From the NCBI GenBank assembly GCA_019358895.1, contig JAHHIG010000001.1:186001-250000 (forward strand): a stretch of DNA of 64,000 nucleotides, given 5' to 3'. Within the stretch, counting starts at the first letter, position 1. The number at the start of each line of letters is the position of its first letter. Of this stretch, positions 5,819 through 61,168 are shown piece after piece. Origin of the DNA: Tildeniella nuda ZEHNDER 1965/U140 (GTDB lineage Bacteria > Cyanobacteriota > Cyanobacteriia > Leptolyngbyales > Leptolyngbyaceae). A model generated the notes under the pieces. That model was not told the DNA's origin, did no database searches, and was given only the letters and a program-made list of their open reading frames with translations. Position numbers and translations under genes: made by a program.

Positions 5819-7324
5819 ATGCCAACCAAGAACTTTCGTCACGTCCGCAAAACCAGTGTCGTGAAAACGCCCGATGGTGGGCGGATTAAACTAGGTAGCT
5901 ATCGTCCCGATAAAAAAAATCCTCACGACAAGAAGTATAAATCCAGTCGATCGACCGTCGATCTGCCGTCGCAAGTCGATTTACGTCCCTATATGACCCC
6001 GGTAGAAAATCAGGGCAACTCCAATAGCTGTACGGCTAATGCAATGGCAGGCGCTTACGAATATCTGGCAAAGCGCATCAAAGGGTCTGCACACGATGTC
6101 AGCCGCCTGTTTATCTACTACAACGCTCGTGATTTGGATGGAGCGATCGACTCCGATGAAGGCACCTATCTTCGCAGTTGTATCAAAGTGCTAAAAAAAT
6201 ATGGCACCTGTGCTGAAACGACCTGGCCCTTTGACCTACAGCGCATCTTTGAACCACCCCACGAAAGCGCTTACAGCGAAGCCACCAACTTTTTGATTGA
6301 AGATGCCTATCGGGTGGATATCGACCTCAACGCCATGCGGCAATGTTTGGCAGATGGGTACCCGTTTACCTTTGGGCTAGATCTCTTCTCGTCGTTTCAA
6401 AAGGCTGGCTCAAAGGGCTTGGTGCCGATGCCCGATCCAGAAACTGAACAGCATGATGGCGGACATGCCATGCTCTGCGTGGGCTATTCCGATGAAGACA
6501 AAGTGTTTATCGTCCGCAACTCTTGGGGTGAAGGCTGGGGCGATCGCGGCTACTGCTACATCCCCTACGACTATATGACCAACCCCGACTTAAACGGCGA
6601 CCTGTGGGCAATTCGCCACGTGGCGGATGCTGATATTGACCTGAGCCAAGACATTCAAGGTGAGCAGGCTTCGCTGTTTAGTGGCGCAACTGCCGCGATC
6701 GCCCACGCGATGCAAAGGGCTGGCAGCACCGTAGAAGACGAGTACACCGTTGAGTATGCAGAACAAACTGTTTACGTTGATGGACACTACATTGCTACTT
6801 CTATCTACGAAGGATTAGACGCGCTGTATTATGCCGACTACGAAGACGAATACGACGACTCCACGTTAACAGAAACCTCTGAAGAAACCGAGTACAGCTA
6901 CGAGGAACCCTCTGAAGAGACATCGGAAGAAACGGCGTATAGCGACGAAGAGTCTGAAGAATCTGAGGAATCTGAGGAAACAGAAGAAATAGAAGAAACA
7001 GAAGACAGCTACGAAGAGTCTGAAGCGGAAGAATCTGAAGACGACGAGGAAGCTGAAGACGACGAGGAATCGGAGGAAACAGAAGACAGCTACGAAGAAG
7101 ACTCTGAAGGAGAGTCTGAGGAAGAGGATGCCGAGGAAGAGGACTCTGAAGAAGAAGAGGAATCTGAAGAAGAGTCTGAGGAAATCGAGGGCAGCTACGA
7201 AGAGGATTCTGAAGAGGCGGACTCTGAAGAAGACAGCGAAGAGGCGTATGAGGAGGCTGAAGACGCTGAAGCTGGCGATGAGGAGGCGTATGAAGACGCT
7301 GGTGGCGAAAGCGAAGAGGAATAA
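5819..7324 (+). CDS. Papain-family (C1A) cysteine protease with long acidic C-terminal tail
   Basis: The catalytic part (residues 60-290 counted from an upstream in-frame ATG at 5780) carries the C1A set: Gln78 in ENQGNSNSC, nucleophile Cys84, His229 in GGHAMLCVGY and Asn247 in RNSWGEGWG. From about residue 350 to the end, some 165 residues are almost only Glu, Ser, Asp, Thr and Tyr in SEE/TEE/SYEE repeats. No signal peptide is evident, which suggests a cytoplasmic enzyme. I prefer ATG 5819 (MPTKNFRHVRK), preceded by AGAGG, over ATG 5780. The start segment is basic and the tail strongly acidic, so intramolecular contact or calcium binding is possible but not shown. A MITE follows the stop at once. 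The protease call is firm; its substrate is unknown. Confidence 0.9.
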   Translation: MPTKNFRHVRKTSVVKTPDGGRIKLGSYRPDKKNPHDKKYKSSRSTVDLPSQVDLRPYMTPVENQGNSNSCTANAMAGAYEYLAKRIKGSAHDVSRLFIYYNARDLDGAIDSDEGTYLRSCIKVLKKYGTCAETTWPFDLQRIFEPPHESAYSEATNFLIEDAYRVDIDLNAMRQCLADGYPFTFGLDLFSSFQKAGSKGLVPMPDPETEQHDGGHAMLCVGYSDEDKVFIVRNSWGEGWGDRGYCYIPYDYMTNPDLNGDLWAIRHVADADIDLSQDIQGEQASLFSGATAAIAHAMQRAGSTVEDEYTVEYAEQTVYVDGHYIATSIYEGLDALYYADYEDEYDDSTLTETSEETEYSYEEPSEETSEETAYSDEESEESEESEETEEIEETEDSYEESEAEESEDDEEAEDDEESEETEDSYEEDSEGESEEEDAEEEDSEEEEESEEESEEIEGSYEEDSEEADSEEDSEEAYEEAEDAEAGDEEAYEDAGGESEEE

Positions 7325-9030: not shown

Positions 9031-9185
<155 letters not shown>

Positions 9186-9270
9186 ACTCAAATTTGCCAC
9201 TCAAGAGCTATGGCTGAGGCTCTTCGTCATGCGACAGTAGGAACGCACAGAGAAGGGCTGAACGTGAGCT

Positions 9271-10875
9271 ATGACCTTGTTCAATAAACCATCGGGTGGG
9301 TTTGCCTCCTGGTTCAAGATTGGTCTAATAGGGCTGCTGGTGCTGTCTTTGGCGTTACGCTTTTGGGGCTTGGGGCGGTTTAACAGTCTGGTCTTTGACG
9401 AGGTTTACTATGTCAAATTTGCCCACGACTATCTGACTCAAACGCCACTCTTTGATGGACATCCGCCGCTGAGCAAATATTTGATTGCGATCGGCATTTG
9501 GCTAGGCAATCAGTTGCCGATCGGTCACGATACGGTGAACAAACTCGCAGGTGCCGAATACACGACATGGAGCTACCGCTGGCTGAATGCGCTGACGGGT
9601 GCCTTCATTCCTCTGGTTGTGGCGGGCATTGCCTATCAGTTGAGCCATCGCCGTAGCTATGCCTTCCTTGCCGGACTGTTTGCGGCGCTGGATGGCTTGT
9701 TTTTAGTCGAGTCACGCTACGCGCTCAATAACGTTTACCTGGTCATCTTCGGGTTACTGGGGTTGTGGTGTTTTTTGCTGGCTTTGGAGGCGCGATCGCT
9801 CTGGCGTAGCATTTATTTGATTGGTTCAGGCATCTTCTTTGGCGCTTCCGCCTCGATCAAGTGGAATGGACTCTGGTTTCTTTTTGGTGCCTATGGGTTG
9901 TGGGTCGTCGCTTGGCTGCTCCGCTGGCTTCAAGCTCGATTCCCAACTAATGCTGAGTTGGCTTTAATGAATTCTGCAACCGGGTTGGGACAAGTCCCAA
10001 CTAATGCTGAGTTGGCTTTAATGAATTCTGCAACCGGGTTGGGACAAGCGAAGGAAAGCCGCAGCCCACTACAAAACTTGACGCGGTTAGCGCCCTGGCA
10101 AATTGCGTTGAATCTAGGCGTTGTGCCAGCGGTGTTCTATCGCCTGATCTGGATTCCTCACTTGAAGTTCAATACGACAGCTAGCTTTTGGGCACTGCAA
10201 CAACAAATCTTGAACTATCACGAGCGGGTGCCAGATGGTCCTAAAGTGCATCCCTACTGCTCTGACTGGTATAGCTGGATTTTAATGCTGCGCCCGGTGG
10301 CGTACTACTACAAAGTCGAGTCACAGGGAGGTCCGCTGTTATCTACCGATCCGGCTGTAAAGGCTGGTAGCACGGTGATTTACGATGTGCACGCGATCGG
10401 CAACCCCATTCTTTGGTGGCTATCAACTCTGGCGATCGTGCTGGTGTTTGCTGTCTTGGCGCAACAGCTTTTGCGGTGGTTAACGATGCAATCTGCTGTA
10501 GCAGGATCTGCTGTAGCAGGACGGTCTGATGGCGGACAGCCATACGACGATCGTCCCCACGCGCTAAATACATCTGAAATCTGGTTGGCACTTTTTCTAG
10601 GCGTAAATTATGCTGCCAACTTGCTGCCCTGGGTACGGGTGACACGCTGCACGTTTTTGTATCACTACATGGGTGCGTCGGTGTTTGCTTCAATGGCGAT
10701 CGCCTGGTTGGTCGATCGCTGGCTTCATAGCAGCAAGCCCAACCTGCGAACGTTCGGGGTTGTCATCATTGTGCTGATTGTCCTGGCGTTCATCTTCTGG
10801 CTACCCATTTACTTAGGGTTGCCCCTTTCATCATGGGAGTTTCAAGGACGAATGTGGCTACGATCGTGGGTGTGA
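9271..10875 (+). CDS. PMT-type (GT39-like) phospholipid-dependent mannosyltransferase
   Basis: This is a polytopic membrane glycosyltransferase resembling protein O-mannosyltransferases, which take sugar from a polyprenyl phosphate. The 534-residue product opens with a membrane helix. It then carries the acidic motif region FDEVYYVKFAHDYLTQTP and HPPLSKYLIAIGIWLGNQLP (residues 40-80), the conserved catalytic Asp/Glu and HPP signature of this family. About eleven hydrophobic segments follow, and the C-terminal part (PWVRVTRCTFLYHYMGASVF) is typical. Two tandem repeats interrupt it in frame: an 18-residue unit twice near residues 224-260 and a 5-residue unit twice near 408-417. Both fall in loops between helices. 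Start ATG 9271 follows a repeat tract. A role in protein or cell-surface glycosylation is inferred. Confidence 0.88.
   Translation: MTLFNKPSGGFASWFKIGLIGLLVLSLALRFWGLGRFNSLVFDEVYYVKFAHDYLTQTPLFDGHPPLSKYLIAIGIWLGNQLPIGHDTVNKLAGAEYTTWSYRWLNALTGAFIPLVVAGIAYQLSHRRSYAFLAGLFAALDGLFLVESRYALNNVYLVIFGLLGLWCFLLALEARSLWRSIYLIGSGIFFGASASIKWNGLWFLFGAYGLWVVAWLLRWLQARFPTNAELALMNSATGLGQVPTNAELALMNSATGLGQAKESRSPLQNLTRLAPWQIALNLGVVPAVFYRLIWIPHLKFNTTASFWALQQQILNYHERVPDGPKVHPYCSDWYSWILMLRPVAYYYKVESQGGPLLSTDPAVKAGSTVIYDVHAIGNPILWWLSTLAIVLVFAVLAQQLLRWLTMQSAVAGSAVAGRSDGGQPYDDRPHALNTSEIWLALFLGVNYAANLLPWVRVTRCTFLYHYMGASVFASMAIAWLVDRWLHSSKPNLRTFGVVIIVLIVLAFIFWLPIYLGLPLSSWEFQGRMWLRSWV
9941..10048 (+). repeat. 54-bp direct repeat, two copies, inside the PMT gene
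   Basis: Copies at 9941-9994 and 9995-10048 appear identical base for base over 54 nt. Each unit starts TCCCAAC and carries GTTGGGA near its 3' end, a 7-bp inverted pair, so the unit itself looks like a small mobile palindromic element. The length, a multiple of three without stops, keeps the gene open and adds 36 residues (PTNAELALMNSATGLGQ twice). Confidence 0.9.
10491..10520 (+). repeat. 15-bp tandem repeat in the PMT gene
   Basis: ATCTGCTGTAGCAGG occurs twice head to tail, encoding SAVAG twice. Each unit contains the near-palindrome CTGCTGTAGCAG. The following bases (GACGGTCTGATGGCGGAC) also look like intergenic repeat sequence, so a slightly longer insert in this loop is likely. Confidence 0.75.
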
Positions 10876-24186: not shown

Positions 24187-24260
24187 GAGGGCAGAGGGCA
24201 GGAGGCAGAGGGCAGAGGGCAGGAGGCAGAGGGCAGAGGAAGCAGAGGTAGCAAGGGGGG
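24187..24260. repeat. Low-complexity GGAGGCAGAGGGCAG repeats
   Basis: Irregular copies of AGGAGGCAGAGGGCAG follow the radical SAM stop directly. The reverse complement of this text is what appears in frame inside ileS (about 59440-59482). A second small repeat (AACTCCAAACTCCAAA) follows at 24279-24299. Confidence 0.85.
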
Positions 24261-24325
24261 GCAGGGGAAGCAGCCTTAACTCCAAACTCCAAACTCCAAA
24301 GCTTCCACTGCCTCCTTTGCTCCCC

Positions 24326-26535: not shown

Positions 26536-26725
26536 GGGAGGTGAGGTGAGTGGAAGATAGAGGAGGTTTGAGTTGTTTTTTCCTGACTTCTGGCTTCTGC
26601 TTCTTCGCGGAAGTGAGGTGTGAGGAGTGAGGGGGTGAGGAGTGAGGGGGTGAGGAGTGATTTCGAGTTGATCCTGACCGCTGACCGCTGACCGCTGACC
26701 GCTCCCTTCTGCCTTCTGCCTTCTT
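26536..26725. repeat. Repeat tract between two GT genes
   Basis: The tract contains GTGAGGAGTGAGGGG three times (26618-26656), the GACCGCT heptamer four times (26676-26702) and TTCTGCCTTC twice (26706-26725). It opens the preceding gene's frame on the minus strand, giving a false N-terminal extension. Similar words lie at 1101-1175 and 9116-9185. Confidence 0.85.
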
Positions 26726-58165: not shown

Positions 58166-58187
58166 AGGGGGTGTTCGATCGCCCCCT
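58166..58187 (+). terminator. Terminator between ferredoxin and ileS
   Basis: AGGGGG (58166-58171) pairs with CCCCCT (58182-58187) around a ten-base loop. It serves the ferredoxin transcript and overlaps the last base of the convergent ileS gene. The following AAAA is on the wrong strand for a plus-strand T-run, so it may act in both directions weakly. Confidence 0.5.
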
Positions 58188-61168
58188 CAAAACGTTCCTT
58201 CTAACGCTGGAATGCAGCGCTCACACAATAACGGATGGTCTGCCGATTCGCCAACGTGGGTGGAGTAGTTCCAGCAGCGATCGCACTTTTTGCCATCTGC
58301 ATCTACCACGCCAATTTGGAGCGCATTCGTTTGAGCGCTATATTTCAAGCCATCTAAACTTTCTGGAGAATCCAACAGTTCGACTTGAGAGGTGAGGAAC
58401 AGGTAGCGCAACTCATCTACACCATTACCGCTCAAGCTAGCGGCAGGATTGAGCGCTTGCAGGGTTTGCTTAAGTTGAGCATCTGTGGTGTACAGCAGCA
58501 GTTTGGCTTCTAGAGAAGAGCCGATCGCTTTGTCAGTGCGGGCTTTTTCCAGCACTTTGTTGACCTCATCGCGGCTCTGGGCGAGGGTTTGCCATTTTGT
58601 CGCCAGCTCTGGTGCGCGCCATTGATCCTCCAGCGTGACCCATCCTGCCTGGAAGACAGATTTGTGGGGCGTGGAGTAGGGCAGCGCTTGCCAGATGTCT
58701 TCTGCCATGTGGGAAAGGACAGGCGCGATCGCTTTTGCCAGATTTTCGAGGGCGATCGCCAGCACGGTTTGGCAACTGCGACGACGAGGCGAATCGACTG
58801 CGCTGATGTAGAGCCGATCCTTGGCGCTGTCGAGATAGAAGTTGGAGAGATCCACGACGCAGAAATTCAGCACTGTTTGGAAGAAGCGGAAGAATTGGAA
58901 GCTATCAAAGGCATCCGTCACTTCGCTGAAAACTTCGGTGATGCGATGGAGCAGGTAGCGATCGAGTTCCGGCAGTTGGTCATAGGGAACCGCATGTTTC
59001 GCTGGATCAAAATCATGCAGGTTTCCCAGCAAAAAACGCGCCGTGTTGCGGATCTTGCGGTACACATCTGCCATCTGCTTCAACACAGTTTTGCCCAGCC
59101 GCATATCTGAGGAGTAATCCACAGACGACACCCACAGTCGCAGCACATCGGCACCATAGGGCGGTTCTTCCTTCTGGTTTTTGCCGCCGTTGATCACAAT
59201 CATCGGATCAACCACGTTACCAAGAGACTTACTCATCTTGTAACCCTGCTCATCCAGCACAAAGCCGTGAGTCAGAACGGTCTTATAAGGTGCACACCCG
59301 TTCACTGCCACACTGGTCAGCAAACTCGATTGGAACCAACCGCGATGTTGGTCGGAACCTTCCAGGTACAGATCGGCGGGGTAGAAAAGGTGAGAGGGTT
59401 GTAGCTTGCTTCCGCTTTGCGGTAGAGAGAGGGGTGTAGCCTCCTGCCCTCTGCCTTCTGCCTCCTGCCCTCTGCCTTCTAGGACTGCTGCCCAAGAGGA
59501 GCCGGAGTCGAACCACACGTCCATCGTATCGGTGCCTTTGCGATAGCTGTGTCCGTTGTTGCGATACGCTTCAGGCAATAGTTCCTCGACGGGTAACTCC
59601 CACCAGGCATCGGAACCTTTCTCGGCAACGATCGCCTGCACAAACGCGATCGTGTCCTGATTAAGCAACGGCTCTCCAGTGGCTTCGTCGTAGAACACAG
59701 GGATGGGTACACCCCAACTGCGCTGACGGGAGATACACCAGTCTGATCGCTCTGCCACCATTGGTGTGATGCGGTTTTCGCCCTGGGCAGGAATCCAGCG
59801 CACGTCGGCGATCGCGTCTAAGGCACGATCGCGGAACCCTTCAACGGAGGCAAACCACTGTTCGGTGGCTCGAAAGATAGTTGGTTTTTTGGTGCGCCAG
59901 TCGTAAGGATATTTGTGGACGTAGGGTTCTTCTTTCAGCAAGGATTGTGCCTCTCGGAGCGCATCAATTACCGCTGTATTGCCGTCACCTAAAACGTTCA
60001 AACCAGCAAACTGTCCCGCTTCTTCAGTGAAGTTGCCGTCATCATCCACCGGCGCCAGGATGGGCAAGCCGTAACGTTGTCCTACCAGGTAGTCATCCTG
60101 ACCGTGACCGGGAGCCGTGTGGACTAACCCTGTACCTGCTTCTGTCGTGACGTAATCGCCACCGATCACGATTTCGCTGCGACGGTCAAAGAGAGGATGC
60201 TGATAGGTTGTGTGCTCCAGCGTTTTACCGACTAATGTTGCCTGTACGGTCAGCGTGGTGCCCAGCACTTCGGAGAGGCGATCGACCAGATCTTTCGCCA
60301 CGATGAGATACTTGAACCGACCCGGCGCGTTTTCTCCCACTTCTACCACGGCATAGATCAGCTCTGGGTTGACGCTGACGGCTAAGTTGGCAGGAATCGT
60401 CCAGGGAGTCGTCGTCCAGATCGCAACGCCCAATTCGCCCGTACCCATAAAGGAATCGAGCGCCATCATCAAGGCTGGCGATAGCTGTTTGACTTCAAAG
60501 GCGGCGTAAAGGCTGCGCGAGGTATGCCCTTCGGGATACTCCAGTTCTGCCTCTGCCAGTGCCGTCTTAGAACTGGGACTCCAGTAGACAGGCTTCAAAC
60601 CGCGATAGATGTAGCCTTTCAGCACCATCTGACCAAACACACCGATCTGAGCCGCTTCATACTCCGGCTTCAGGGTCAGGTAGGGATGCTCCCAATCGCC
60701 CCAGACACCGTAGCGCTTGCAGTCTTGACGCTGCTGGTCAATGGTTTTAAGGGCAAACTCTTTCGCTTTTTGCCGCAGTTTCAACGGTGTGAGCGCTTTA
60801 CGCTCGTCGGCTTTCAGGGTTTGCAGCACTTTTAGCTCGATCGGCAACCCGTGGCAATCCCATCCCGGCACGTAGCGCACCTTCCGTCCTCGCAGCAGGT
60901 GGTACTTGTTGATGACATCTTTCAACACTTTGTTGAGGGCGTGCCCCATGTGCAGCGAACCGTTGGCATAGGGCGGACCGTCGTGCAGCACAAACACGTC
61001 GCCTGGGTTTTCCTGCGAGAGATGCTCATAGAGCTTTTCTGCTTCCCAAAATGCCTGTAGCTCCGGCTCTCGTTTGACGGCGTTGGCACGCATATCAAAG
61101 TTGGTTTTGGGAAGATTAACAGTGTCTTTGTAGGAGCCGGGTTCTGTCACAGTCATGGAGTTGGGCAC
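58187..61168 (-). CDS. ileS: Isoleucyl-tRNA synthetase with repeat-derived insert
   Basis: IleRS charges tRNA-Ile. The 993-residue product has class I motifs PYANGSLHMGHALNK (HIGH), GYKMSKSLGN (KMSKS), the editing domain (TTPWTIPANLAVSVNP), and a C-terminal zinc ribbon KCDRCWNYS...LCERC. Between GSSWAAVL and YPADLYLEGSDQHRGWF, about 30 residues (EGRGQEAEGRGQEATPLSLPQSGSK and neighbours) are translated from the GGAGGCAGAGGGCAG-type repeat and adjoining sequence. This connective segment normally has only a short stretch there. The frame stays open, so the insert is tolerated or removable, and the enzyme is essential. Only this one ileS is in view. Confidence 0.95.
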   Translation of the reverse strand: MPNSMTVTEPGSYKDTVNLPKTNFDMRANAVKREPELQAFWEAEKLYEHLSQENPGDVFVLHDGPPYANGSLHMGHALNKVLKDVINKYHLLRGRKVRYVPGWDCHGLPIELKVLQTLKADERKALTPLKLRQKAKEFALKTIDQQRQDCKRYGVWGDWEHPYLTLKPEYEAAQIGVFGQMVLKGYIYRGLKPVYWSPSSKTALAEAELEYPEGHTSRSLYAAFEVKQLSPALMMALDSFMGTGELGVAIWTTTPWTIPANLAVSVNPELIYAVVEVGENAPGRFKYLIVAKDLVDRLSEVLGTTLTVQATLVGKTLEHTTYQHPLFDRRSEIVIGGDYVTTEAGTGLVHTAPGHGQDDYLVGQRYGLPILAPVDDDGNFTEEAGQFAGLNVLGDGNTAVIDALREAQSLLKEEPYVHKYPYDWRTKKPTIFRATEQWFASVEGFRDRALDAIADVRWIPAQGENRITPMVAERSDWCISRQRSWGVPIPVFYDEATGEPLLNQDTIAFVQAIVAEKGSDAWWELPVEELLPEAYRNNGHSYRKGTDTMDVWFDSGSSWAAVLEGRGQEAEGRGQEATPLSLPQSGSKLQPSHLFYPADLYLEGSDQHRGWFQSSLLTSVAVNGCAPYKTVLTHGFVLDEQGYKMSKSLGNVVDPMIVINGGKNQKEEPPYGADVLRLWVSSVDYSSDMRLGKTVLKQMADVYRKIRNTARFLLGNLHDFDPAKHAVPYDQLPELDRYLLHRITEVFSEVTDAFDSFQFFRFFQTVLNFCVVDLSNFYLDSAKDRLYISAVDSPRRRSCQTVLAIALENLAKAIAPVLSHMAEDIWQALPYSTPHKSVFQAGWVTLEDQWRAPELATKWQTLAQSRDEVNKVLEKARTDKAIGSSLEAKLLLYTTDAQLKQTLQALNPAASLSGNGVDELRYLFLTSQVELLDSPESLDGLKYSAQTNALQIGVVDADGKKCDRCWNYSTHVGESADHPLLCERCIPALEGTF
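59386..59482 (-). repeat. Interspersed repeat inserted in ileS
   Basis: CTCCTGCCCTCTGCCTTCTG occurs twice in tandem (about 59440-59480), the reverse complement of the tracts at 24187-24260. About 45 further bases towards 59386 look foreign to ileS too. The total stays a multiple of three without stops. Confidence 0.85.

Follow-up and report, generated by a model that had tools for sequence, protein, structure and literature searches.

How can an essential enzyme carry a dispersed repeat within its reading frame? The question is raised by ileS, the gene for isoleucyl-tRNA synthetase (IleRS), in a 64,000-nt stretch of the cyanobacterium Tildeniella nuda ZEHNDER 1965/U140 (positions 186,001 to 250,000 of contig JAHHIG010000001.1), hereafter the window, which sits in contig C9 of a draft genome (6.08 Mb, 38 contigs) labelled G000 among the genomes compared here. 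Since ileS is essential and apparently present in single copy, the gene must work with the repeat in frame. The reading favoured here, with a probability of about 0.77, is that a cluster of 7-nt repeats (heptamers), composed of a purine-rich arm, a pyrimidine-rich arm and a nested 24-nt module, has lodged in a permissive loop of IleRS, that the ribosome reads it along with the rest of ileS, giving the enzyme a loop that is mostly hydrophilic, probably disordered and tolerated rather than useful, and that the contents of such loops turn over.

The gene lies on the minus strand (58187..61168) as a single open frame of 993 residues, and it is the only copy found in the genome. Its product scores 983 bits against the NCBIfam ileS model TIGR00392 (curated cut-off 621.4), and one profile match (Pfam PF00133) spans the heptamer array. 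A genome-wide search returned no second ileS, the seven other matching rows being pieces of distant frames that are at most 36 % identical; the view taken in the initial annotation, that the gene is open and must function, is thereby upheld. The insert comprises 96 nt (59384..59479, minus strand) and encodes residues 564-595 (EGRGQEAEGRGQEATPLSLPQSGSKLQPSHLF), flanked by GSSWAAVL and YPADLYLEG, at a point where relatives mostly have seven residues. Comparison with those relatives confirms it, in that the span from VWFDSGSS to LEGSDQHRGW measures 61 residues in the window protein vs 36 in most other loci read. Set beside the annotated figure of about 30 added residues, the insert itself is 32 residues long and the net gain in the loop is 25; alignment to the solved IleRS of Priestia megaterium leaves a 25-residue gap between AVLEERE and DLQRPADLYLEGSDQ. 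The HIGH-type motif HMGH is found at residue 73 and KMSKS at residue 644; the insert, annotated as lying inside the catalytic region, follows GSSWAAVL, replaces a short loop between motifs and enters none of them. The best-matching named record is that of Leptolyngbya sp. FACHB-321 (locus L068), at 90 % identity. Two further ileS loci are unusual in other ways. In Calothrix sp. CSU_2_0 (L135), the ileS match covers 3.7 kb with an open frame of ordinary length, which may reflect similar downstream sequence or an extended match, and at G013:C310:19715-22593 ileS seems to be in two parts: the matched pieces are 356 nt apart and the second contains a TAG, as a pseudogene, a frameshift or an assembly error would produce.

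What such an insert might do to the enzyme was addressed by AlphaFold2. Based on 75 aligned sequences, the IleRS model has a mean predicted local distance difference test (pLDDT) score of 85.1 and a predicted template modelling (pTM) score of 0.81; an earlier run with 18 sequences gave a mean pLDDT of 51.3 and was unused. Stretches with a pLDDT below 50 are confined to residues 1-5, 647-650 and 567-591, the last being the only long one and lying between a predicted helix (551-571) and a predicted strand (598-603). The nearest folds are the IleRS of P. megaterium and the solved structure 1qu2. The model thus predicts that the insert bulges out, disordered, from an intact IleRS fold. Its translation and harmlessness are suggested by the uninterrupted frame, by the lack of another ileS copy and by the rules on frame and strand given below.

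The insert is a composite, so that the annotated description of one repeat lying in frame in ileS holds for the frame and not for the unity of the repeat. The left arm (59439..59480, minus strand) consists of six heptamers of the (RRGGCAG)n family, also written (GGCAGRR)n and purine-rich on the coding strand, which form two identical 21-nt units and encode EGRGQEAEGRGQEA (Tandem Repeats Finder, period 7, 6.0 copies). The right arm (59384..59438, minus strand) is pyrimidine-rich on the coding strand, encodes TPLSLPQSGSKLQPSHLF and appears, by eye, to be the reverse complement of GAGGGGTGAG-like sequence; nested within it is the dispersed 24-nt module GTAGCTTGCTTCCGCTTTGCGGTA (59401..59424, plus strand). 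The inverted repeat across the insert is weak (15-nt arms, 73 % complementary). A search tolerating up to three mismatches counted 14 copies of the module in G000 and 8-15 per genome in five congeners, and the reversed control gave none. Of the 14 copies in G000, 12 have a GRGGTGAG-type heptamer no more than 25 nt away on one side or the other, and eight have one on each side, while the corresponding values for random positions are 1.3 % (left side) and 0.03 % (both sides); likewise, a called period-7 array occurs within 150 nt of 8/14 copies vs 70/2000 random positions. Near-matches to GGAGGCAGAGGGCAG number 17 in the window vs a mean of 1.74 and a maximum of 6 in shuffled windows, and a 29-mer heptamer pattern has 493 genomic matches at up to three mismatches (overlapping matches counted) vs none when reversed. 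A chance origin of the repeat copies is ruled out by these shuffled-window and reversed-pattern controls.

The same data bear on the proposal that no mobility is involved, weakly constrained loops simply gaining heptamers by local polymerase slippage, with one bias acting everywhere and so explaining the resemblance among sites. A genome-wide excess of heptamers is what this proposal predicts, and heptanucleotide slippage has been put forward in work cited in the consulted part of PMC4679880. However, a few heptamer families make up many of the arrays, the module, which is not tandem, travels with them, and adjacent arrays favour purine-rich followed by pyrimidine-rich sequence (14 such pairs, two in the reverse order and 24 others; sign test p = 0.004, with genes and spacers pooled and neighbouring pairs not fully independent). 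Slippage as the whole explanation is thus judged unlikely, though it keeps real weight.

Outside ileS, the repeat family had been annotated as intergenic. This was examined in a repeat-blind sample of 864 kb, or 14 % of the genome (C9:1-180000, C9:186001-470000 and C11:1-400000), from which, as in a second genome described below, clusters closer than 400 nt to the end of a chunk were excluded; gene flanks were called by a simple hexamer coding score. The sample holds 138 arrays of period 7 vs 0-12 for each period of 4-6 and 8-13, the 104 arrays of period 14 being a harmonic. Of its 99 clusters, 17 sit in frame between two coding flanks and belong to nine genes, 38 have one coding flank, 43 fall into neither class, and one has two coding flanks without being open. 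As a statement about the genome, 'otherwise intergenic' therefore fails. The last class had first been scored under a stricter threshold; recounted at equal coding cut-offs of 0.05, 0.10 and 0.15, the in-frame clusters number 17, 16 and 12, and those with both flanks coding on one strand and no common frame number 13, 11 and 8. The 13 were considered as broken genes and rejected, because the upstream frame stops before the array in 12 of them and at its first base in the other, i.e. the clusters follow a stop codon. As an observation in its own right, the upstream frame of these clusters between co-directional genes ends from 40 nt before the array to 1 nt inside it in 13/13 cases. The 864 kb yielded no gene that an array had broken, although long-decayed broken genes would escape this search. 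If the frame were irrelevant, two-thirds of in-gene insertions should break genes, vs zero broken and nine intact observed, for which a rough figure is (1/3)^9 = 5e-5. Scaling from the sample suggests about 60 genes with in-frame clusters genome-wide; the ileS insert would then be one of some tens, and the annotated idea that it shows how a repeat can pass into an essential protein stands for the dispersed repeat in ileS and not as a lone case.

Another sample, a selected one, came from the best of the listed hits to the GGCAG pattern, which represent 72 distinct arrays, 20 of them with at least 70 open codons on both sides. Array L025 was dropped as an in-gene case; it seems to lie upstream of a gene, and we take the sequence after it to be purS-like. 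The 19 remaining arrays fall in 17 genes, including uvrA, ligA, cimA, metH, nurA, ileS, a pyridoxal decarboxylase gene and histidine kinase genes, along with an open reading frame (L215) that has no Pfam match. Across the two samples, a single profile match crosses the array in a methyltransferase, GH116, NurA, CimA (TIGR00977), PrmC (TIGR03534), FAD_oxidored and GH57, and one gene may hold several clusters: there are four separate in-frame clusters in the GH116 gene (C9:268548-271478) and six in a WD40 protein gene (L297:6547-11208), which has an in-frame copy of the 24-nt module as well.

Heptamers suit in-gene sites because seven is not a multiple of three. As 7 mod 3 = 1, the encoded peptide is independent of insertion phase, all three frames giving the same cyclic seven-residue peptide (GRGQRAE for GGCAGAG), and the one requirement is a total length divisible by three; a stop-free, hydrophilic array of such length would be harmless in any frame. 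Strand is a separate matter. In the GGCAG sample, 17/17 genes read the GGCAG strand, which encodes hydrophilic, EGRGQKA-like peptides, and none reads the LPSAFCL strand, although both strands are stop-free; the sole array in the opposite orientation is the rejected L025. The 864-kb sample contains 21 in-gene arrays. None has a stop in its sense heptamer, 14 have one in the antisense, and in the other seven arrays (four genes), with both strands free of stops, the sense peptide is the more hydrophilic in 7/7. Selection may therefore act as a filter that removes frame-breaking versions, stop-containing versions and, for GGCAG, hydrophobic ones. Such regularities speak to whether the inserts are absent from the mature protein or mRNA, in the manner of an intron, an intein or a ribosome bypass element. 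The interruption of conserved domains would be explained by removal, and bypass elements of similar size occur in yeast mitochondria, but a removed segment would require neither the absence of array-broken genes nor the uniform choice of the hydrophilic GGCAG strand. Furthermore, 96 nt is too short for an intein, and Pfam and NCBIfam searches returned no separate domain at this open-frame insert. Removal is consequently regarded as very improbable.

Whether the occupied site has a history of its own was assessed by reading the ileS loop in other genomes, where the repeat character was mostly judged by eye. The loop is at least 13 residues longer in nine of 36 family genomes read (G000, G002, G004, G005, G006, G010, G019, G023 and G056), and period-7 arrays were called within it in six of the eight scanned (G000, G002, G004, G006, G010 and G019, and not G005 or G023). 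The units vary, being GGCAGRR, CTCAAAA or CTCAAAC, CTCTCCT-like and, by eye, GACGAAG-like. Congener G005 has sequence like the left arm and a pyrimidine arm that lacks the 24-nt module, its flanking array differing too; the TTCGCG-type module in the G006 insert has one copy in that genome and is not a repeat at the threshold used. The loop of congener G001 is without a repeat, and that of family member G046 is standard. At locus L054 of G014, the loop holds an in-frame palindrome of at least 22 nt (GGGGCGAATGGCCATTCGCCCC) that adds four residues, so a quite different class of repeat seems to use the ileS site. As sister species fill the loop with other sequences, mostly heptamer arrays, use of this site is wider than the passage of one repeat copy envisaged in the initial annotation. 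Two observations stand apart from these. At L146 and G097:C274:45021, in the more distant lineage f11, the loop is 18 residues longer and contains a repeated CCCGACCCAG motif that is not a heptamer, and insert-bearing loops mostly follow SSWAAVL or WAGVL, standard loops having A, V or L at the final position, a possible co-variation with loop length.

The comparison makes an assembly artefact very hard to credit. The draft state of the genome, with its 38 contigs, would allow for one, but separately assembled congeners have inserts at the same ileS site, the frames stay open, and the single-contig chromosome of G019 has in-frame arrays as well. It also lowers the standing of a functional cluster, one that would regulate by forming a G-quadruplex or hairpin in RNA or DNA or would serve as a useful flexible loop. 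In support of function, sites persist across genera, and, according to the part of PMC4692102 consulted, quadruplex formation in vitro is known for G-rich heptamers that are related to the Nostoc ones; on the other hand, repeat identity at the ileS site is not conserved, the repeat is missing from G001, and G046 combines its standard ileS loop with spacers in UvrA, MetH and PrmC that show no repeat peptides. Function is accordingly held to be improbable, if less so than an artefact.

The other genes behave similarly, as judged by measuring the spacer between two conserved motifs and assessing repeat character by eye. The LigA spacer is 33-86 residues long in the six genomes read out of seven of the genus (G000, G001, G002, G003, G005 and G006); alignment gaps imply one of about 14 residues in G046 and one as short as that of G003 in G004, and the LigA row of G019 (L355), a false match of a loose pattern, was excluded. 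In CimA, the spacer measures 46-65 residues in the four genomes read, and a much shorter one is implied for G003. Repeat-like peptides change between genomes in MetH (five read, 75-87 residues) and PrmC (six read, 19-28 residues), and UvrA (seven read, 41-55 residues) has a conserved non-repeat core with heptamer peptides beside it in some species only. Repeat-type peptides appear at the same sites in other genera, namely in MetH and CimA of G010 and G021 and in MetH of G019 and G053. The MetH, UvrA and PrmC spacers read in G046 and G028 are without them, and as the MetH spacers there still measure 66-69 residues, the MetH site is a long linker even without repeats. In 400 kb of the G019 chromosome there are 23 period-7 arrays and 19 counted clusters. 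Three of these are in frame, and one of the three matches the FAD oxidoreductase site of G000 by its flanking sequence, with a different heptamer; the same length of G046 has four period-7 arrays and none in genes. Thus, ileS, LigA, CimA, MetH, PrmC and the FAD oxidoreductase all appear to carry different repeat sequence at the same site in different species. Over time, the same loops would stay occupied as the repeat family within them changes, by recombination, slippage or renewed insertion among dispersed copies.

Several results weigh against the reading of a tolerated cluster with changing contents. The uniform absence of stops from the 21 sense heptamers is mostly imposed by the in-frame selection criterion, and with stops ignored, the sense peptide is the more hydrophilic in just 11 of the 21, one GH116 array even coding for the hydrophobic ILYPLSF; for these reasons the 17/17 of the GGCAG sample is the better evidence for choice at the peptide level. 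All calls of coding flanks rest on the simple hexamer score. In-gene arrays are neither more degenerate nor shorter than the others (longest perfect run and length alike, p = 0.77 and 0.72), so extra protection against slippage was not seen, and one G019 cluster (G019:C1:254436) has coding flanks but no open frame. Scans of 388 class genomes with exact flanking DNA, which overlook genomes with other flank letters, found ileS loops 4 to 23 residues longer in 47 genomes and 24 to 43 longer in three; families f2 and f23 account for 33 of those 47, and by eye their loops are without heptamers, indicating that the IleRS loop is generally variable. On a tree of 46 IleRS with the loop removed, long inserts (10 rows) need at least six changes, and their distribution thus conflicts with the gene tree. 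Finally, the inserts of G004, G006, G010 and G019 share, by eye, one architecture (SxEF..VLS..L..NSKLKxQNSKLK), within which G006 has a further stretch, and that of G002 shares an E(L/V)PD(N/H)S core. Part of the apparent turnover may thus reflect an old insert that was lost in places or exchanged in short tracts.

Taken further, these last similarities become a full alternative, in which a single hairpin-like element entered an ancestor of the genera and has since undergone decay, local patching by slippage and several losses, without renewed insertion. That the insert is at one position in all carriers fits this history as well as the common architecture does. Nevertheless, the heptamer family of G000 and G005 is a different one (GGCAG), the sequence in G023 and G056 is different again, and the module of G000 belongs to a dispersed family with its own heptamer context. 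In addition, G001, which lacks an insert, groups on the IleRS tree with G004, which has one, and no wider recombination tract was found around the repeat-free loop of G001, identity to G004 being 0.90 and 0.91 in the adjoining 40-codon windows. One old insertion is hence a possible but doubtful account of the whole, and a tolerated cluster with changing contents remains the preferred reading.

Elsewhere in the window, three clusters served for comparison. A repeat scan with open reading frames places the first (24187..24302) between frames, as a GGCAG array followed by an AACTCCA array; the repeat scan gives GGCAG, GGCTAAA and GCTGACC arrays in succession for the second (9033..9190), and an AGTGAGG-type arm followed by GACCGCT and CTTCTGC heptamers for the third (26612..26725). 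Long open frames are absent on both sides of the copies at 9035 and 26702. For the copies at 24187, 9035 and 26702, the annotation of the family as intergenic was compatible with what was seen. Other repeats of the window include a 21-nt repeat (GGAAGCAAGGGAGGCAGAGGG, 5.1 copies) at 779-890, with GTAGCTCGCTTCC-type sequence about 70 nt further on, which resembles a higher-order repeat built from heptamers; long arrays of GAAGAATCTGAAGAAGACGAG-like units in tandem (81, 18 and 12-15 nt) at 6947-7308, apparently coding for an Asp/Glu-rich stretch; and a 54-nt unit in perfect tandem duplication (2.0 copies, 100 %) at 9941-10048.

Among known systems, the closest in outcome are the Rickettsia palindromic elements (RPEs), dispersed repeats that have inserted in frame in numerous unrelated protein genes, frequently those of metabolism (PMC10969869, as far as the consulted part of that source goes). 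In-frame insertion in several unrelated genes is equally found here (nine genes in 864 kb, 17 in the selected sample). Unlike RPEs, which are about 150 bp long and each code for a conserved peptide, the window insert has 96 nt, 7-nt tandem arrays and several families in a cluster; its inverted repeat is weak, and in the cyanobacterial clusters the sequence at one site, and with it the peptide, differs between species, as peptides do between sites. The insert is therefore no RPE by size, palindromy or conserved peptide. By their tandem 7-nt unit and many dispersed arrays, the repeats are of the same general kind as the published cyanobacterial heptanucleotide repeats. The latter are tandem heptamers in the genomes of Calothrix PCC 7601 and Nostoc, which, in the consulted part of PMC4692102, are over-represented in non-coding DNA and not treated as inserts in core proteins; the same part reports that 7-11 % of heptanucleotide repeats in two Xanthomonas are intragenic. 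The TAACTGA repeats of Beggiatoaceae and some cyanobacteria are heptamers too, and it has been proposed that the stops they contain in one orientation restrict their placement in genes, but in the genome studied there they lie mostly just upstream of putative start codons, and essential-gene inserts are not described in the part of PMC4679880 consulted. The 24-nt module, a short unit (about 20-25 nt) at many sites, resembles the small dispersed repeats (SDRs) of cyanobacteria (Elhai et al. 2008), very short modules that are thought to be mobile, of which SDR5 is reported to insert precisely in HIP1 (PMC4390886, consulted part). The module differs in sitting among GRGGTGAG-type heptamers rather than in HIP1. 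In the open-access literature searched, no description was found of heptamer inserts in core cyanobacterial proteins or of changing clusters at fixed loops of core enzymes.

A more far-reaching version of the preferred reading is offered tentatively, being thought somewhat less likely than its opposite. It holds that loops in dozens of core proteins, including IleRS, LigA, CimA, MetH and PrmC, would constitute fixed 'repeat niches', kept filled by selfish heptamer clusters that recombination swaps between intergenic DNA and genes, thereby rewriting the same disordered loops in parallel in many essential proteins and faster than the proteins evolve. To our knowledge, the main precedent for selfish repeats lying in frame in numerous proteins of a single genome is Rickettsia, a small-genome parasite. 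In the present case, the host appears to be a cyanobacterial lineage whose genome measures 6 Mb, with simple heptamers in frame in tens of its genes and at positions used again in other genera, and the frame-independence of heptamer peptides provides a plain, testable reason for their tolerance in proteins. For annotators and structure predictors, the message is that such loops are repeat-derived, and the same loops amount to a natural experiment on how foreign peptide is accommodated by essential enzymes.

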